Assembly: GCF_022489035.1 (NCBI RefSeq)
Contig: NZ_JAKVTV010000001.1
Span: 620,001-684,000, forward strand
Direction of reading: 5' to 3'
Source of the DNA: Christiangramia lutea
GTDB taxonomy: Bacteria; Bacteroidota; Bacteroidia; Flavobacteriales; Flavobacteriaceae
DNA: 64,000 bases
The notes under the pieces were generated by a model. The model did not search any database. It saw only the letters and a list, made by a program, of their open reading frames with translations, and was not told where the DNA came from. Position numbers and translations under genes: made by a program. Below, one piece after another: positions 21,482 through 42,392 of the stretch; within the stretch, counting starts at the first letter, position 1; every line of letters starts with the position of its first letter.

Positions 21482-22357
21482 ATGAGCAAAAAGAATTATG
21501 CCGGGATACCCGATAAATACGCTCGCATAGACGAAGCAAAAGTGGTATTGATTCCTGTTCCCTACGATGGTACCAGTACCTGGCAAAAAGGCGCTGATAA
21601 AGGCCCTGATGCATTTTTAGATGCTTCCGAGAATATGGAGCTTTACGACATTGAAACCCGAAGCGAGGTTTATAAGAAAGGTATTTACCTGGCACCGCCG
21701 GTAACAGAAAATTCCTCTCCAGAAAAGATGGTGGAGGCCGTTTATAAAACCACCAAAAACTACATCAAACAGGAGAAATTTGTGACCTTATTCGGTGGAG
21801 AGCACTCGGTTTCTATAGGTAGCATTAGAGCATTTAACGAGTCTTTTGAAGATCTAACGGTAGTTCAGCTAGACGCACACGCCGACCTTAGACCAGAATA
21901 TGAGGGTTCTAAATGTAATCATGCCTGTGCAATGCATGAAGCCAGCAAAACTACGAACCTTTTGCAGGTGGGAATCCGATCTATGGATATTTCTGAAAAT
22001 GACCATATGGATGAAAACCAGGTATATTTTGCTCATGATCTTTATGACGACTGGCAGGATGATGCCATAGGGCAGATGACGCCGAACGTATTTATTACTA
22101 TAGACCTGGACGCCTTTGACCCTAGTATAATGCCTTCTACAGGAACTCCGGAACCAGGAGGATTATTCTGGTATGAAACTCTGGAATTCCTAAAGATGAT
22201 GTTCAAAAAGAAAAATGTTGTTGGTTTCGACATTGTGGAGCTTTGTCCGAACGACAAGGAAAAATCTTCAGATTTCCTTGCAGCTAAGCTTTACTATAAG
22301 ATGTTGAGCTACAAATTCAAATATCAAAATTACAACGAAGACGACGAAGATGAGTAA
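21482..22357 (+). CDS. speB: Agmatinase (ureohydrolase family)
   Basis: This 291-residue manganese ureohydrolase splits agmatine into putrescine and urea. Metal ligands are visible in GGEHSVS (about residue 100), QLDAHADLR (about 128-136) and TIDLDAFDPSIMPSTGTPEPGG (about 205-226). Arginase is the main alternative, but the gene lies directly after arginine decarboxylase. Its last 8 bases overlap the start of the next gene, a deoxyhypusine-synthase-like protein, so the three are translationally linked. Confidence 0.88.
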   Translation: MSKKNYAGIPDKYARIDEAKVVLIPVPYDGTSTWQKGADKGPDAFLDASENMELYDIETRSEVYKKGIYLAPPVTENSSPEKMVEAVYKTTKNYIKQEKFVTLFGGEHSVSIGSIRAFNESFEDLTVVQLDAHADLRPEYEGSKCNHACAMHEASKTTNLLQVGIRSMDISENDHMDENQVYFAHDLYDDWQDDAIGQMTPNVFITIDLDAFDPSIMPSTGTPEPGGLFWYETLEFLKMMFKKKNVVGFDIVELCPNDKEKSSDFLAAKLYYKMLSYKFKYQNYNEDDEDE

Positions 22358-23321
22358 AGGACAGATATCTCAGTTTATTGAGAAATACTATTTACATTTT
22401 AACGCGGCAGCCCTTGTAGACGCGGCAAAAGACTACGAAAAACAACTGGAGAACGGCTCTAAAATGCTGGTTTCCCTTGCCGGTGCGATGAGCACGGCTG
22501 AGCTTGGGAAGATCTTTGCTGAAATGATTCGCCAGGATAAAGTTCATATCATTTCCTGTACTGGTGCCAACCTGGAGGAGGATGTGATGAACCTTGTCGC
22601 GCATTCACACTACAAAAGAGTTCCAAACTATCGTGATCTCACTCCGCAGGAGGAATGGGATTTGTTGGAAAAAGGTCTGAATCGGGTAACCGATACCTGT
22701 ATTCCTGAAGAAGAAGCTTTTAGAAGAATTCAGGAGCACATTTTCAAGATCTGGAAAGATGCTGAAGAAAAGGGAGAACGTTTTTTTCCGCATGAATTCC
22801 TTCACAAGCTTCTATTAAGCGGAGTGATGGAAGAACATTATGAAATCGATCTTAAGGATTCCTGGATGTATGCCGCAGCCGAGAAGAACCTTCCAATGGT
22901 TGTTCCAGGATGGGAAGACTCTACGCTAGGAAATATTTTCGCTTCTTACGTTTTAAAAGGCGAGTTAAAAGCAAGCACCATGAAGTCTGGTATTGAATAC
23001 ATGACTTTCCTTGCCGACTGGTATACCGATAATTCCAAAAACGGAATTGGATTCTTTCAGATTGGTGGTGGTATCGCCGGAGATTTCCCGATTTGTGTAG
23101 TACCTATGTTGTACCAGGATATGGAAAGAACAGATACTCCATTCTGGAGTTATTTCTGCCAGATCTCAGATTCCACAACTAGTTACGGATCTTACTCAGG
23201 TGCAGTGCCCAACGAAAAGATCACCTGGGGTAAGCTGGACATCAATACGCCAAAACATATAATTGAAAGTGACGCAACCATAGTTGCTCCCCTTGTTTTT
23301 GCATATCTGCTGGATATGTAG
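22350..23321 (+). CDS. Deoxyhypusine synthase-like protein, possible homospermidine synthase
   Basis: This 323-residue NAD-dependent enzyme belongs to the deoxyhypusine synthase family. The catalytic lysine that forms the enzyme-imine is kept: ITWGKLD, Lys295, in the same context as the eukaryotic SWGK motif, with ESDATIVAPLVFAYLL after it. NAD-binding glycines are in ISCTGANLEEDV and IGGGIAGDFPI. Bacteria have no eIF5A to modify. Flavobacteria are known to contain homospermidine, and DHS-type enzymes can make it from spermidine/putrescine, so homospermidine synthesis from the putrescine made upstream is a reasonable inference. It overlaps agmatinase by 8 bp. Confidence 0.87.
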   Translation: MSKGQISQFIEKYYLHFNAAALVDAAKDYEKQLENGSKMLVSLAGAMSTAELGKIFAEMIRQDKVHIISCTGANLEEDVMNLVAHSHYKRVPNYRDLTPQEEWDLLEKGLNRVTDTCIPEEEAFRRIQEHIFKIWKDAEEKGERFFPHEFLHKLLLSGVMEEHYEIDLKDSWMYAAAEKNLPMVVPGWEDSTLGNIFASYVLKGELKASTMKSGIEYMTFLADWYTDNSKNGIGFFQIGGGIAGDFPICVVPMLYQDMERTDTPFWSYFCQISDSTTSYGSYSGAVPNEKITWGKLDINTPKHIIESDATIVAPLVFAYLLDM

Positions 23322-23337
23322 AAAAACTTTTAATAGC

Positions 23338-23370
23338 AGACCTCACAGGTTTTTAAAACCTGTGAGGTCT
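23338..23370. repeat. 33-nt REP-type palindrome, copy A
   Basis: AGACCTCACAGGTTTT / AAAACCTGTGAGGTCT form 16-bp perfect arms around one central T. It lies 17 bp after the stop of the deoxyhypusine-synthase-like gene and is followed by TTTAG. The same element brackets the tyrosine transposase gene near 31.2-31.9 kb. It may also act as a transcription terminator here. Confidence 0.85.
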
Positions 23371-29630: not shown

Positions 29631-31229
29631 CTATTTGCTCTTCTGATCTATAAGATCAAGCAGATTTAAATTATCTCCCATCACCGCTTCCTGAGTTACA
29701 GTTCGGTTCTTTCGGGACCCATTTTCCAGCTTCAATACGCCTCTTGGGCAAACCGCTGAACAGATTCCGCAACCAACACAACTGGAGCGCACGATATTTT
29801 CACCCTTCTGGGCATAAGCCCGTACATCGATCCCCATTTCACAATATGTAGAACAGTTTCCACAGGAAATACACTGACCGCCATTGGTTGTAATCCTGAA
29901 TTTAGAGAAAAGTCTTTGCTGCATCCCGAGGATTGCTGCCATTGGGCATCCAAACCTACACCAAACCCGGTTACCGAAAATGGGATAAAAACCGGTGCCA
30001 ATCACCCCGCTAAAAACAGCTCCTATTAAGAAACCATAGGTCTGCCTTAAATTCTCAGCATTGAAAAGGAATAAATTTTGCCCGCTGAAATAATGCAAGC
30101 CAACTAAAGAAAGAATGATTACCAGGTAACCGATAGCTCCGTATCTCGCGTCCTTCTCCAATTCCTCTTTTTTAAAATACCAGATCCCGGCAAACAAAAG
30201 GGTCAGAAAAACAGCCACACTAATCAGAAAAACATCCTTGTTCAGCCAGTATTTATCGGCATCGTAGCCCAGGTAAGAATAGATCACTGCGGTGGTCATC
30301 AAAACCACAAATACGAGTACGCTGTGAATTACCCATCGCTCCACTTTCCAGGCAAAGAGACTTTTATCTGAAAGGTGCCTGTAGGGGTCACCGGCTGTTT
30401 CGGCGAGGCCACCACAACCACAGACCCAGCTGCAATACCAGCGTTTTCCGTATTTATAAGTTAGAATTGGCGTTATAATAAAGATCGACGCAATTCCAAG
30501 GAAGAGTAAAGCCAAACCAATATCACCTGAGGAAAGAAATCCGTCAACCCGGTATTGCTCAAAATTGTAGTAATTCAGGGGCCAGATATTCTTAAGGTCA
30601 TAATAAGGAAGATTAAATCCCTCTTCTTTATTTAACCTTGACATCAATTCCGGAATCAAAAAAGCAAAACCGGTCTGGAAGAAAATCACTGAAATGGTTC
30701 GAAGCCTTTGATAAGTATTATGCCTGTATTTCCAGAAAAATTTAATCCCGAAAGCGGCAATGGCAATGGTATAAAGTGTTCCGTAGACAAACCACTGACT
30801 AGCCGGATTACCACTAAGAAGTTTACTTAAAGGATCGAAAAGAGCTATAAGACCAGTATTATCAGCGTCGGTTCTCAAACCAAGGTATTCCGGATAGAAA
30901 TAGAGAATAATATAAAAACCCGTAAGGGCTATTCCGGTGATCCAGGCCAGGTAACCACGGTTGGTCATGGATTTGAACCAAACTCCGTCATTTTTGATCC
31001 CTTCATGTTTCCCGGCATAAGCTGCCCTGGCAAACCAGGCTATTCCGCCAAAAATAGATGCCAGCGAAAGGCTCAACCAAAGAGTTTTATTTGGAAAATT
31101 GACATTAAGGCTTGCCAGAAGAAGAATGATTAGCCCCGAAATTCCCAGAAACGAGGCTAGCTTTTGCTGTGTATTTATCGCTGCCGGAGCTTCCCCGGTT
31201 AATGACATGTTATGTTCTATCCTACTCAT
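29631..31229 (-). CDS. Membrane-bound polyferredoxin (NapH/CcoG/NosR-C-like)
   Basis: I start at the ATG at 31229; an upstream GTG would fall within the palindrome at 31242-31274. The protein is about 532 residues with some 10 TM segments. Two cysteine clusters in membrane-adjacent loops (WYCSWVCGCGG and VWCRFGCPMA) and two C-terminal 4Fe-4S motifs (CxxCxxCxxxC: CISCGNCSTYC and CVGCGICSAVCP) identify a NapH/NosR-type electron-transfer protein, probably oxidising quinol. It follows, after the transposase gene, a NAD(P)H flavoprotein gene, a likely electron partner. Confidence 0.83.
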   Translation of the reverse strand: MSRIEHNMSLTGEAPAAINTQQKLASFLGISGLIILLLASLNVNFPNKTLWLSLSLASIFGGIAWFARAAYAGKHEGIKNDGVWFKSMTNRGYLAWITGIALTGFYIILYFYPEYLGLRTDADNTGLIALFDPLSKLLSGNPASQWFVYGTLYTIAIAAFGIKFFWKYRHNTYQRLRTISVIFFQTGFAFLIPELMSRLNKEEGFNLPYYDLKNIWPLNYYNFEQYRVDGFLSSGDIGLALLFLGIASIFIITPILTYKYGKRWYCSWVCGCGGLAETAGDPYRHLSDKSLFAWKVERWVIHSVLVFVVLMTTAVIYSYLGYDADKYWLNKDVFLISVAVFLTLLFAGIWYFKKEELEKDARYGAIGYLVIILSLVGLHYFSGQNLFLFNAENLRQTYGFLIGAVFSGVIGTGFYPIFGNRVWCRFGCPMAAILGMQQRLFSKFRITTNGGQCISCGNCSTYCEMGIDVRAYAQKGENIVRSSCVGCGICSAVCPRGVLKLENGSRKNRTVTQEAVMGDNLNLLDLIDQKSK

Positions 31230-31241
31230 TTTATTTATTTT

Positions 31242-31274
31242 AGACCTCACAGGTTTTGGAAACCTGTGAGGTCT
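31242..31274. repeat. 33-nt REP-type palindrome, copy B
   Basis: AGACCTCACAGGTTT / AAACCTGTGAGGTCT arms of 15 bp around TGG. It lies 3 bp after the stop of the transposase gene and 13 bp before the polyferredoxin ATG. The arms match copy A exactly apart from the centre. Confidence 0.9.
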
Positions 31275-31277
31275 GTT

Positions 31278-31841
31278 CTAATCAAAATTTAAGTCCCATT
31301 TGGACTCTACTTCCGTTTGAGAATGCAGATAATCAAAATTATCTATACTATCGAACAAATCAATTACCTGATCTCTTTGCAAAAAAGTAGAAGAATCTGA
31401 TACCAGTTTTGAAAAAGATGAAAATTGATATTCCCTGAAATTAGAAATTACTTTATGATTTTCAGGGTTTCGATGTATATACAGGATCAAATTTTGAAGA
31501 TATTTTTCATCTTCGATCCTCTTTCTTTTGAACCGATCTTGAAACAGACTTCCTGTTCTATTATAAGCTTTATTAATGGCTTTAGCATATGAATTAAAGA
31601 AATTTGAAAATGCCTGAGAAATGGATCTATTTTCAATATCATTTTTGGTCCTAATCAGTAGATGGAAATGATTTGGCAGCATACAATATGCATAAATATC
31701 ACAGACAGGTAAAAGGTATTTTTCAGTAAGCCTTAAAAAGTGGTGATAATTTCTCTCTTCAAAAAAAACCAATTGTTTATTATTCCCACGATTAAAAATG
31801 TGGTAATAAGAATCGGTTTTTATTGGTTCACACTGCATCAT
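31278..31841 (-). CDS. REP-associated tyrosine transposase (RAYT, IS200/IS605-like Y1)
   Basis: I start at the ATG at 31841 (MMQCEP; a second ATG is at 31838), giving 187 residues; an upstream GTG lies inside palindrome C. The HUH metal site is HFH at residues 58-60 in MLPNHFHLLIR, and the RAYT signature YIHRNP is at 121-126, with Tyr114 and Tyr121 as candidate nucleophiles. The N-terminal YYHIFNRGNN (12-21) is also typical. The protein nicks and moves single-stranded hairpin DNA. No TnpB or other cargo is present. The frame is intact, so the enzyme may be active. Confidence 0.9.
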   Translation of the reverse strand: MMQCEPIKTDSYYHIFNRGNNKQLVFFEERNYHHFLRLTEKYLLPVCDIYAYCMLPNHFHLLIRTKNDIENRSISQAFSNFFNSYAKAINKAYNRTGSLFQDRFKRKRIEDEKYLQNLILYIHRNPENHKVISNFREYQFSSFSKLVSDSSTFLQRDQVIDLFDSIDNFDYLHSQTEVESKWDLNFD

Positions 31842-31853
31842 AGATATTTTACT

Positions 31854-31886
31854 AATCCTCACAGGTTTTGGAAACCTGTGAGGATT
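31854..31886. repeat. 33-nt REP-type palindrome, copy C
   Basis: AATCCTCACAGGTTT / AAACCTGTGAGGATT arms of 15 bp around TGG, 12 bp upstream of the transposase ATG and 6 bp beyond the end of the flavoprotein gene. The outer three base pairs differ from copies A and B on both sides, preserving pairing. Confidence 0.9.
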
Positions 31887-31892
31887 TAGTTC

Positions 31893-33179
31893 TTAGACAT
31901 CTTGAAAATTATTTTTAAAACTGCTGAAGATCTCCTTTTCATGAGAATCATAAAATTCGGGGTCGAAATTTGCCTGCCTTAAATTGGCCAGAACCTGGTC
32001 TATGGATTTCTCTTCATGTAGCCAGCGATCGAAAACCTCATGGCGCATTCGTATTCCAAACGTATTTATACCCAAAAATTTCTTGGTTTCTGAATTAAAA
32101 GAAATAGTAATGGCTTTTGGTTCAGTTTTATTCTTCCAATAAAAATGCTGTTCATTCGATCTTGGTTCAGGCCAGACCCAACCATAGGTTTGATATTCGA
32201 TATCAAAGAATTTCGCTGAATTAAACCAATTTCCGGGTTCATAAGCAGTTCTATCACCTGTTAATGTCCTGGCCAGCGTTTCGCCCATAATTCTTCCGGT
32301 GTACCAGACTGCTTCCACTGGTTTTCTGAGTCCGATAGCCTTTCTCTGCTGTGAACAATCACCAATCGCATAAACGCTAGGAATATTCGTTTCCAGATAT
32401 TCATTTACCAAAACACCTCTATCGGTTTCTAAATCTGAATCCTTGAGAAAATCGATATTAGGTCGAACTCCGGCACAAAGACCTACCAACTCACATTCAA
32501 TTTCTTCTCCGTTTTTGGTCTTAACAGCCCTTACCCTTCCGTTTTCATCGGGAATGATCTGTTCAAGTTCAGTATTGTGCCTTAGGTCAACGCCATGAGA
32601 TTTTATATGTTCTGAGATCATTTCGGCTTCTGGCATCGGCAATACATTGTTCCAGAAAGCCTGCTCGCGAACCAGGAAAGTCACTTCAATATTACGCGTT
32701 CTAAGCATTTCTGCCAGCTCTACTCCTATTAAACCGCCACCAACAACCACTGCTTTTTTGGTATGAGCAGTATTCTCTTCCAGCTCAATGAGATCCTGTT
32801 TGGAAACAAGTCCCTGAACTCCTTTAAGGTCTTCACCATCCCAGCCAAATTTGTTATAAACCGAGCCCGTGGCAATAATTAGTTTATCATATTCTAAAGG
32901 CTCCCCGGCAGAAAAACTTAATTTTTTCTTTTCAAAATCCACCTTTTCCACCCAAGCCTTTTTCAATTCTATCCGGTTCTTTTCCCAGAACCAGTCTTCG
33001 TATGGTTTCAGGTGGTCCCACTTCATATGCCCCATGTAAACATACATTAAGGCAGTGCGGGAAAAGAAATAATCGTTTTCTCCGGAAATTACGGTGATTC
33101 TGTGATCAGATCTTTTACGAATATGCCTGGCAGCAGTAATTCCTGCAATTCCATTCCCGATAATAACGATATGCTCCAT
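31893..33179 (-). CDS. NAD(P)H-dependent FAD oxidoreductase (rubredoxin reductase/NirB-N type)
   Basis: This 428-residue protein has an N-terminal FAD motif (IIGNGIAGITAARH, residues 5-18), the LIIATGSVYNKFGWDG block, a central NAD(P) motif VVVGGGLIGVELAEML (about 144-159), and the second FAD motif SVYAIGDCSQ (about 268-277). The C-terminus (about 340-428) is an extra domain without cysteine clusters. Members pass electrons from NAD(P)H to ferredoxin-like partners. The polyferredoxin gene lies downstream on the same strand, now separated by the transposase unit. Confidence 0.87.
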   Translation of the reverse strand: MEHIVIIGNGIAGITAARHIRKRSDHRITVISGENDYFFSRTALMYVYMGHMKWDHLKPYEDWFWEKNRIELKKAWVEKVDFEKKKLSFSAGEPLEYDKLIIATGSVYNKFGWDGEDLKGVQGLVSKQDLIELEENTAHTKKAVVVGGGLIGVELAEMLRTRNIEVTFLVREQAFWNNVLPMPEAEMISEHIKSHGVDLRHNTELEQIIPDENGRVRAVKTKNGEEIECELVGLCAGVRPNIDFLKDSDLETDRGVLVNEYLETNIPSVYAIGDCSQQRKAIGLRKPVEAVWYTGRIMGETLARTLTGDRTAYEPGNWFNSAKFFDIEYQTYGWVWPEPRSNEQHFYWKNKTEPKAITISFNSETKKFLGINTFGIRMRHEVFDRWLHEEKSIDQVLANLRQANFDPEFYDSHEKEIFSSFKNNFQDV

Positions 33180-41728: not shown

Positions 41729-42187
41729 ATGAAGGATTTAGAAATAAACGCTGCATTGCAGATAGGAAAATCAAGGGAAGAAGTTTTTGAGGCTATTGTA
41801 GATCCGGAAAAGATGGCCCATTATTTTATTTCAGAAAGTACAGGACGCTTAGAAGAAGGTGAAACGGTTCAATGGAAATTTCCGGAATTTGACATGAGGT
41901 TTCCAGTTACCACAAAAAAGGTGAATAAGCCGGCGATGATCGAAATCGACTGGGAAGGTGCACCCGGGAAAACGACAAATGTCAAGTTTCAACTGGAATC
42001 AAAAGCTGAAGAAAAAACCCTGGTAAGGATTACCGAAGGAAGTATGAATGTAGATGAAGAAGGTTTGCAATGGTTCGGAAGAAACTCGGAGGGCTGGGCC
42101 AATTTCCTGGCTTGTATGAAGGCTTACCTGGAATTCGGGATCAACCTGAGAAAAGGAGGATATGATTTTATGATAATTAAGGAATAA
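41729..42187 (+). CDS. SRPBCC/AHSA1-family protein
   Basis: This 152-residue protein has the AHSA1 (activator of Hsp90 homologue) START-like fold: IGKSREEVFEAIVDPEKMAHYFISESTGRLEEGETVQWKF (start about residue 12), and C-terminal EGSMNVDEEGLQWFGRNSEGWANFLACMKAYLE (WxxxLxxLKxYLE-like). Such proteins bind hydrophobic ligands or act as small cofactors. It lies downstream of the AraC-type gene by 101 bp. Role unknown. Confidence 0.82.
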   Translation: MKDLEINAALQIGKSREEVFEAIVDPEKMAHYFISESTGRLEEGETVQWKFPEFDMRFPVTTKKVNKPAMIEIDWEGAPGKTTNVKFQLESKAEEKTLVRITEGSMNVDEEGLQWFGRNSEGWANFLACMKAYLEFGINLRKGGYDFMIIKE

Positions 42188-42303
42188 AATTCAAAGCAAA
42201 TTATCCCATTGTCGTCATAAGTTATACCTTCTAAAACGTATATAAATTCAGGATGACGCCACTACTTAGATAGCCAGAATATAACGAACTAGTCCAGACA
42301 ATA

Positions 42304-42336
42304 AAACCTCACAGATTTTAGAAATCTGTGAGGTTT
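42304..42336. repeat. 33-nt REP-type palindrome, copy D
   Basis: AAACCTCACAGATTT / AAATCTGTGAGGTTT arms of 15 bp around TAG. It lies in the spacer between the convergent SRPBCC gene and groL. Compared with copies A-C, one inner pair is changed from G-C to A-T on both sides, and the outer pairs also differ while staying complementary. Confidence 0.88.
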
Positions 42337-42392
42337 AATATTCAACAGCTATTTAAAAAACACCTGCTATTATTTTCGATGTGGCCGTGCTA

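Follow-up and report, generated by a model that had tools for sequence, protein, structure and literature searches.

A RAYT-like transposase gene between 33-nt palindromes at an operon junction of Christiangramia lutea, with relatives fused to a heme enzyme

In Christiangramia lutea (RefSeq assembly GCF_022489035.1), a gene for a HUH/Y1 transposase stands between a flavoprotein gene and a polyferredoxin gene, with a short palindrome on either side. Is this a mobile element that has lately interrupted an operon, or a resident gene that belongs together with its palindromes? We address this question in a window of 64,000 nucleotides (contig NZ_JAKVTV010000001.1, positions 620,001 to 684,000), whose own coordinates are used below, and in related genomes. 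With good confidence we read palindrome, RAYT and palindrome as a REPtron-like unit, an old single-copy resident of an operon junction in which the transposase would act on its own palindromes. The kind is known, a RAYT accompanied by palindromes, represented here by a Christiangramia RAYT/REP-like system whose palindromes have a format of their own.

RESULTS AND DISCUSSION

A single-copy RAYT-like gene in a redox gene neighborhood

The transposase gene (31278..31841, minus strand) encodes 187 aa with the motifs NHFH and YIHRNP, the tyrosine of the latter being the catalytic one, and matches the Pfam family Y1_Tnp (PF01797; E=1.8e-7, 31.7 bits against a cut-off of 23). Its start is placed at the ATG at 31841, with a GTG at 31862 as a possible alternative. 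Upstream lies the gene for an FAD/NAD-dependent oxidoreductase, the flavoprotein (31893..33179, minus strand; PF07992, E=8.4e-56), which was found in all 24 Christiangramia genomes; downstream lies a polyferredoxin-like membrane protein matching Fer4 families (29631..31229, minus strand; ORF call). That all three genes share one frame as a rule was an idea we dropped: it holds in the window and only partly elsewhere. Of 10 distinct islands at this junction, 7 have the RAYT in the frame of the flavoprotein gene and 5 in that of the polyferredoxin gene, with 3 having all three genes in one frame. The NCBIfam model REP_Tyr_transpos scores the window protein at E=8.3e-16 and 58.2 bits, below its curated cut-off of 80, and we therefore call the protein RAYT-like rather than the named equivalog.

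The window RAYT is the only Y1_Tnp match in its 3.47-Mb assembly, and each of the seven RAYT-bearing Christiangramia genomes likewise holds one RAYT. H59, H61 and Y122 are invariant in the alignment of these seven proteins. The Trp conserved between HUH and Tyr is replaced by Phe in the window RAYT (aligned to the Trp of PDB 4er8), and over 114 RAYT rows this position is Phe in 101, Leu in 1 and unresolved in 12. Four of the 114 rows missed one motif expression: three retain the Tyr in a changed context (L044, YINNNA; L135, YVNLNS; L152, YTHNNP), and L068 reads GHFH. One pair in the genus (G003 and G012) gives a dN of 0.11 and a dS of 0.65 (dN/dS about 0.17), the remaining pairs having a dS of 2 or more or being saturated. 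The frame of the window gene is intact and the substitution pattern indicates purifying selection, which makes it plausible that the transposase still works.

A dispersed family of hairpin-forming palindromes

As the earlier note described, the gene is bracketed by 33-nt palindromes: one at 31242..31274 (AGACCTCACAGGTTT TGG AAACCTGTGAGGTCT) ends 3 bp from the stop codon, and the other at 31854..31886, with the foot AAT/ATT rather than AGA/TCT, lies 12 bp before the ATG. The two further copies that it reported in the window were also recovered, at 23338..23370 in the spacer 3' of a deoxyhypusine-synthase-like gene (22350-23321; PF01916) and at 42304..42336 between the convergent gene 41729-42187 and groEL (PF00118). 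The search core that it quoted, CCTCACAG-TTT-N3-AAA-CTGTGAGG, lacks bases in each arm and gave no matches even with 3 mismatches allowed; the true core is CCTCACAGGTTT-N3-AAACCTGTGAGG. Within 3 mismatches this 27-nt core matches the window 4 times, against 0.00 expected and none in 100 dinucleotide shuffles. All four copies fold as single-stranded DNA hairpins with 3-nt loops (z -7.5 to -8.5); the stem is 15 bp in three, and longer with a one-base bulge in the 31854 copy. In the 42304 copy, changes on one arm are matched on the other.

Confinement to these four sites would have spoken against a repeat family, and the palindrome proved to be dispersed: the assembly contains nine core copies within 3 mismatches (reversed-pattern control, 0) and three variants, namely two inside-out copies (ACCTGTGAGGT...ACCTCACAGGT) and one copy with a short spacer, for a total of 12. 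The inside-out copies, in which the arms are exchanged, lie at G000:C1:312619-312647 and 524385-524413 in the window's genome (G000). Ten of the 12 copies lie away from the RAYT; with ORFs counted from 100 aa upward, nine of these are intergenic, and the inside-out copy at 524385-524413 overlaps the last 8 nt of an ORF. The palindromes that flank the RAYT thus recur in intergenic DNA. The feet of the nine core copies vary and yet remain complementary (AGA/TCT, AAA/TTT, AAT/ATT). In none of the nine does the 5' foot show the GT[AG]G of canonical GTAG REPs, and an Rfam search of window positions 22000-44000 returned no match. The suggestion of a Flavobacteriaceae REPtron stands in so far as a RAYT-like gene is accompanied by a dispersed palindrome family of its own, but these are not canonical REPs, for which more than 100 copies per genome are given (PMC2817692, as far as the cited part extends) against about ten here (9 within 3 mismatches, 12 with variants).

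The 23338 copy is absent from the orthologous spacer in 10 of 10 relatives read (of 23 congeners), and the roughly 70 bp in which it sits are missing from these relatives. Tandem copies also occur in the genus: at L203:2359-2918 (G012:C1:114357-114918) we observe five palindromes in units of about 133 bp, resembling a BIME cluster.

History of the flavoprotein/polyferredoxin junction

Was the gene inserted here, as the earlier note proposed? The junction is indeed empty in 19 of the 24 Christiangramia genomes, where the flanking genes lie -4 to +5 bp apart, tightly and without scars; four genomes carry palindrome-RAYT-palindrome (G000, G003, G004 and G012), and one, G010, has a 46-bp junction with a single palindrome and no RAYT. 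Within a single genus the junction thus exists in filled, empty and palindrome-only form. What does not hold is a recent local event, as the island is common to other genera: the identical junction is occupied in six of their genomes (Winogradskyella ouciana, Aequorivita vladivostokensis, Bizionia argentinensis, G157, G036 and G307), the RAYT being flanked by a palindrome on either side in all six and the G036 copy having an internal stop. Occupancy of one junction across genera means that the island is old, with losses or repeated arrivals, and for this reason we set recent insertion aside as the main reading. The RAYT island is an old resident of the junction rather than a new arrival. G010 is sister to the filled G004 on the flavoprotein tree (98/91), its grouping on the polyferredoxin tree being open, and it therefore looks like a case of RAYT loss that left one palindrome behind. 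The 19 tight junctions reflect either scarless loss or sites that were never filled.

An ordinary IS200-like mobile element that jumped recently into the operon would fit these empty junctions, and also the position of the window's genome, which on both the flavoprotein and the polyferredoxin tree falls among empty-site genomes, apart from the other filled ones. We nevertheless hold this to be improbable. Multiple mobile copies of the whole unit, as expected of IS200/IS605, are not seen: none of the seven RAYT genomes of the genus ever has more than one copy, and the site is shared by several genera, with six genomes outside Christiangramia occupied at the same junction. The four Christiangramia RAYTs at the site, moreover, form one clade (99/87; 91/87 in a smaller tree), and the gene is under purifying selection.

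Old residence with repeated loss is one possible history, and repeated insertion at the same junction is another. The clade that holds the window RAYT comprises 17 rows at only three junctions: flavoprotein/polyferredoxin (10 rows), FabA-like/SDR (4, including two identical rows) and HypE-like/HypD (3). L207, L208, L211 and L209 are window-clade RAYTs at the latter two junctions in several genera. Confinement of the clade to three junctions is what would be expected if the RAYTs of the lineage, rather than being inherited in place, had a preference for re-inserting at a small set of fixed operon junctions; the scarless tightness of the 19 empty sites fits as well, and forcing the ten flavoprotein-site RAYTs into one clade is disfavored (AU p 0.023). 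That test, however, was chosen after the tree had been seen, a single clade for the FabA-like/SDR site is not rejected (AU p 0.164), the protein is short with weak support deep in the tree, and two more RAYTs with CAC-type palindromes (L049 and L051) stand at other sites. We regard preferential re-insertion as conceivable but rather doubtful, and retain the reading of an old resident unit.

Palindrome cores follow the RAYT tree

Palindromes within 3 mismatches occur in 15 of the 24 Christiangramia genomes (the window's included) and a RAYT in 7. Two groups can be told apart among the seven RAYTs: four stand at the flavoprotein/polyferredoxin junction and have CAC palindromes, and the other three have GCA palindromes and occupy an asparaginase/polA junction (genes named by Pfam). 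The co-occurrence foreseen in the earlier note is found in one direction, with palindromes in all seven RAYT genomes, but 8 of the 17 genomes without a RAYT carry them too (Fisher p 0.019). Four congeners (G001, G002, G007 and G008) have palindromes with a CCC core (ACCTCCCAGGT), and no RAYT flanked by a CCC core was seen in them.

In a sample of 397 Flavobacteriaceae genomes, 60 have a RAYT match. The CAC palindrome is present in 35 of the 397 (reversed-pattern control, 0), namely in 22 of the 60 with a RAYT match against 13 of the 337 without (p 7e-12; the overlap was counted by hand and includes copies flanking the RAYT). The link between RAYT and palindrome is not strict, because 8 of 17 congeners and 13 of 337 family genomes have the palindrome without a RAYT, and because 38 of the 60 genomes with a RAYT match lack the CAC form.

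A scan of named genomes, from which 80 of 336 RAYT-encoding stretches were kept, places the hosts mostly in Bacteroidota, with others in Chloroflexi, a Methylococcaceae and a Chlorobiota bin. Of the 80 loci, 47 have at least one flanking hairpin scoring 13 or higher (26 of them on both sides) and 33 have none; such hairpins occurred in 10 of 496 control windows, chosen without matching for intergenic DNA, and in 0 of 62 shuffled ones. Of 77 such hairpins, 48 are exactly 33 nt long. They share the frame AGACCT-N3-AGGTTTT.n.AAAACCT-N3'-AGGTCT, in which the core triplet N3 is CAC in the window and AAC, GTC/GAC, GCA/ACA or others elsewhere; in distant RAYTs the frame is altered, with the length kept in several. 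Counting a core as equal to its reverse complement, upstream and downstream cores agree at 19 of 23 RAYT loci. The core triplet follows the RAYT tree, on which 24 changes suffice (69 of 114 rows, the others having no assigned core) against 38-49 in 200 shuffles. The variable triplet can be matched to the RAYT protein by a direct binding test.

These observations bear on a further explanation, by which the palindromes are bidirectional transcription terminators or mRNA-stabilizing hairpins unrelated to the RAYT. Nearly all of them are intergenic and several lie near ORF ends, and for REPs a role in termination has been proposed (PMC3733652, in the part cited here). In the 42304 spacer (window 42188-42392) the palindrome takes the place of a GC-rich, terminator-like hairpin present in 7 of 9 relatives read, and the copy at 31854-31886 gives one weak terminator-like match on the plus strand. 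The copies with AGA/TCT feet, however, have no U-run directly past the stem; nor would hairpins unrelated to the RAYT be expected to have a core that tracks the RAYT tree or to bracket RAYTs that stand at unrelated sites and occur in other phyla. A role of this sort to the exclusion of the RAYT seems to us quite unlikely, while a terminator function and a link to the RAYT could both be true. At the 42304 site, the spacer measures about 3 kb in G018 and G021, and that of G021 (3.3 kb) contains one loose palindrome match.

Under our preferred reading, the REPtron-like unit belongs to a RAYT lineage that lives mostly, though not only, in Bacteroidota. By analogy with its family, the protein is expected to bind its 33-nt palindrome when this is single-stranded and folded into a hairpin, the lagging strand being the most likely place, with recognition probably relying on the constant frame (AGACCT...AGGTTTT) together with the variable core triplet, CAC here. 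One tyrosine would then cut and join the palindrome, so that palindromes occasionally appear at new intergenic sites. The RAYT gene itself does not multiply, remaining a single-copy, old operon-junction resident under purifying selection. It is probably expressed by operon read-through and may be removed by deletion that leaves one palindrome, as in the congener G010.

Relation to known RAYT and REP systems

Among solved structures, the Escherichia coli TnpAREP (PDB 4er8) is the best match of our profile (E=0.0039). Both systems have a HUH Y1 gene beside palindromes; the window system departs from TnpAREP and its GTAG REPs in the Phe for the Trp of WQ and in its near-perfect, symmetric 33-nt palindrome without GTAG. 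GTAG REPs and relatives flanked by TIRs have been described (PMC3733652, in part). The closest described class is TnpAREP subclass 2.6, equivalent to RAYT group 5, which the cited sections of PMC6006769 place mostly in Bacteroidetes with "atypical secondary structures" that have copies elsewhere. With the class so described, the window RAYT shares the host phylum, a length of about 180-190 aa, a C-terminal Ser-Ser, the lack of a GTAG guide and atypical flanking structures. Its motifs differ, being NHFH, FQ and YIHRNP against NH[LIV]H, WQ and YIH[QN]NP, as does the HUH-Tyr distance, 63 against a median of 82, which PMC6006769 may measure differently. Host and structure would thus agree with subclass 2.6, as characterized in those sections, and the motifs do not appear to place the window RAYT there.

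RAYT-HemF fusions

The most surprising finding among the RAYT relatives is a fusion. Many of them have open frames of about 500 aa. Two such frames that were scanned consist of a RAYT and an oxygen-dependent coproporphyrinogen oxidase, HemF (PF01218, E=1e-133; NF003727 over its cut-off), and the others match the same HemF. A fusion model at E<=1e-60 matches 331 of the 397 family genomes, most of those listed through HemF alone; among the matches listed, sorted by score, a full-length RAYT-HemF in one open frame is found in 16 of the 397 genomes, from 16 genera (G271, G155, G191, G348, G283, G400, G059, G407, G157, G176, G148, G368, G230, G180, G097 and G158). G360, with a 482-aa open frame, was rejected as a fusion; it has a plain 301-aa HemF without a RAYT. 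Named hosts include Algibacter, Flavivirga, Gelidibacter, Mariniflexile, Hanstruepera, Hyunsoonleella, Seonamhaeicola and Polaribacter, and fused named loci include L052, L058, L063, L065, L066, L078, L083, L096, L098 and others. Exactly one PF01218 match is present in each of the 16 fused genomes, as in each of 14 comparison genomes.

The two enzymes are often joined by the linker DLSGFENLTGL or its kin, which is the translated palindrome (GAC CTG TCA GGT TTT GAA AAC CTG ACA GGT CT). A search expression for the palindrome hits the linker DNA of 12 fused genomes out of 16; the exceptions are L182, L186, L194 and L198. Between RAYT and the HemF start there is no ATG in 11 of the 16 and no ATG, GTG or TTG in 10; the other 5 retain an ATG and could start HemF there. 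At position -4, the unfused RAYT neighbors within 280 bp have an ATG in 11 of 11 cases (two with identical RAYTs; L113, at 343 bp, excluded). All 17 named fusions that were aligned keep the catalytic His, His and Tyr, and in five fusion pairs omega lies between 0.07 and 0.19 in the RAYT part and between 0.04 and 0.06 in the HemF part. Fused and hemF-adjacent RAYTs together form one group of 59 rows (94/90), in which the fused rows alone are not one clade.

The palindrome is exactly 11 codons long, and we think it probable that it has acted as a translatable joint by which RAYTs, mostly through their own palindrome, became welded in 16 genera to HemF, the product of the only oxygen-dependent coproporphyrinogen oxidase gene found in those genomes and one mostly left without an ATG of its own; the window island would be the unfused form. 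Since the fused transposase domain keeps its catalytic residues and is under purifying selection, a selfish-looking gene may have made itself inseparable from a heme enzyme, or may have been recruited to it. In many marine bacteria, RAYT relatives are joined through this palindrome to an enzyme that makes heme, and the fusions tie the RAYT to an assayable phenotype.

We found no report of a RAYT-HemF fusion, of HemF with a transposase or of a flavobacterial REP in the open-licence PMC literature. The fusion is likewise missing from the TnpAREP survey in the sections cited (PMC6006769), perhaps because overlong proteins were discarded there as fusions or annotation errors. The same sections describe subclass 2.4, in which a REP is inserted in frame inside the tnpAREP gene; as in RAYT-HemF, the REP is read as protein, whereas in our fusions it is the linker joining the RAYT to a second enzyme, HemF, that contains the palindrome.

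The loci L064 and L138 are identical at 1477 of 1495 aligned bases and differ at the junction by one copy of an AATC repeat, one being fused and the other unfused; a slippage switch is possible, as is a sequencing difference. At L078, hemC-hemD and hemE lie upstream, so the fusion there sits in a heme cluster, and at L078:1377-1430 the hemE frame likewise runs open, ahead of its Met, through a stretch coded by a palindrome (DLQGFKNLAGQ).
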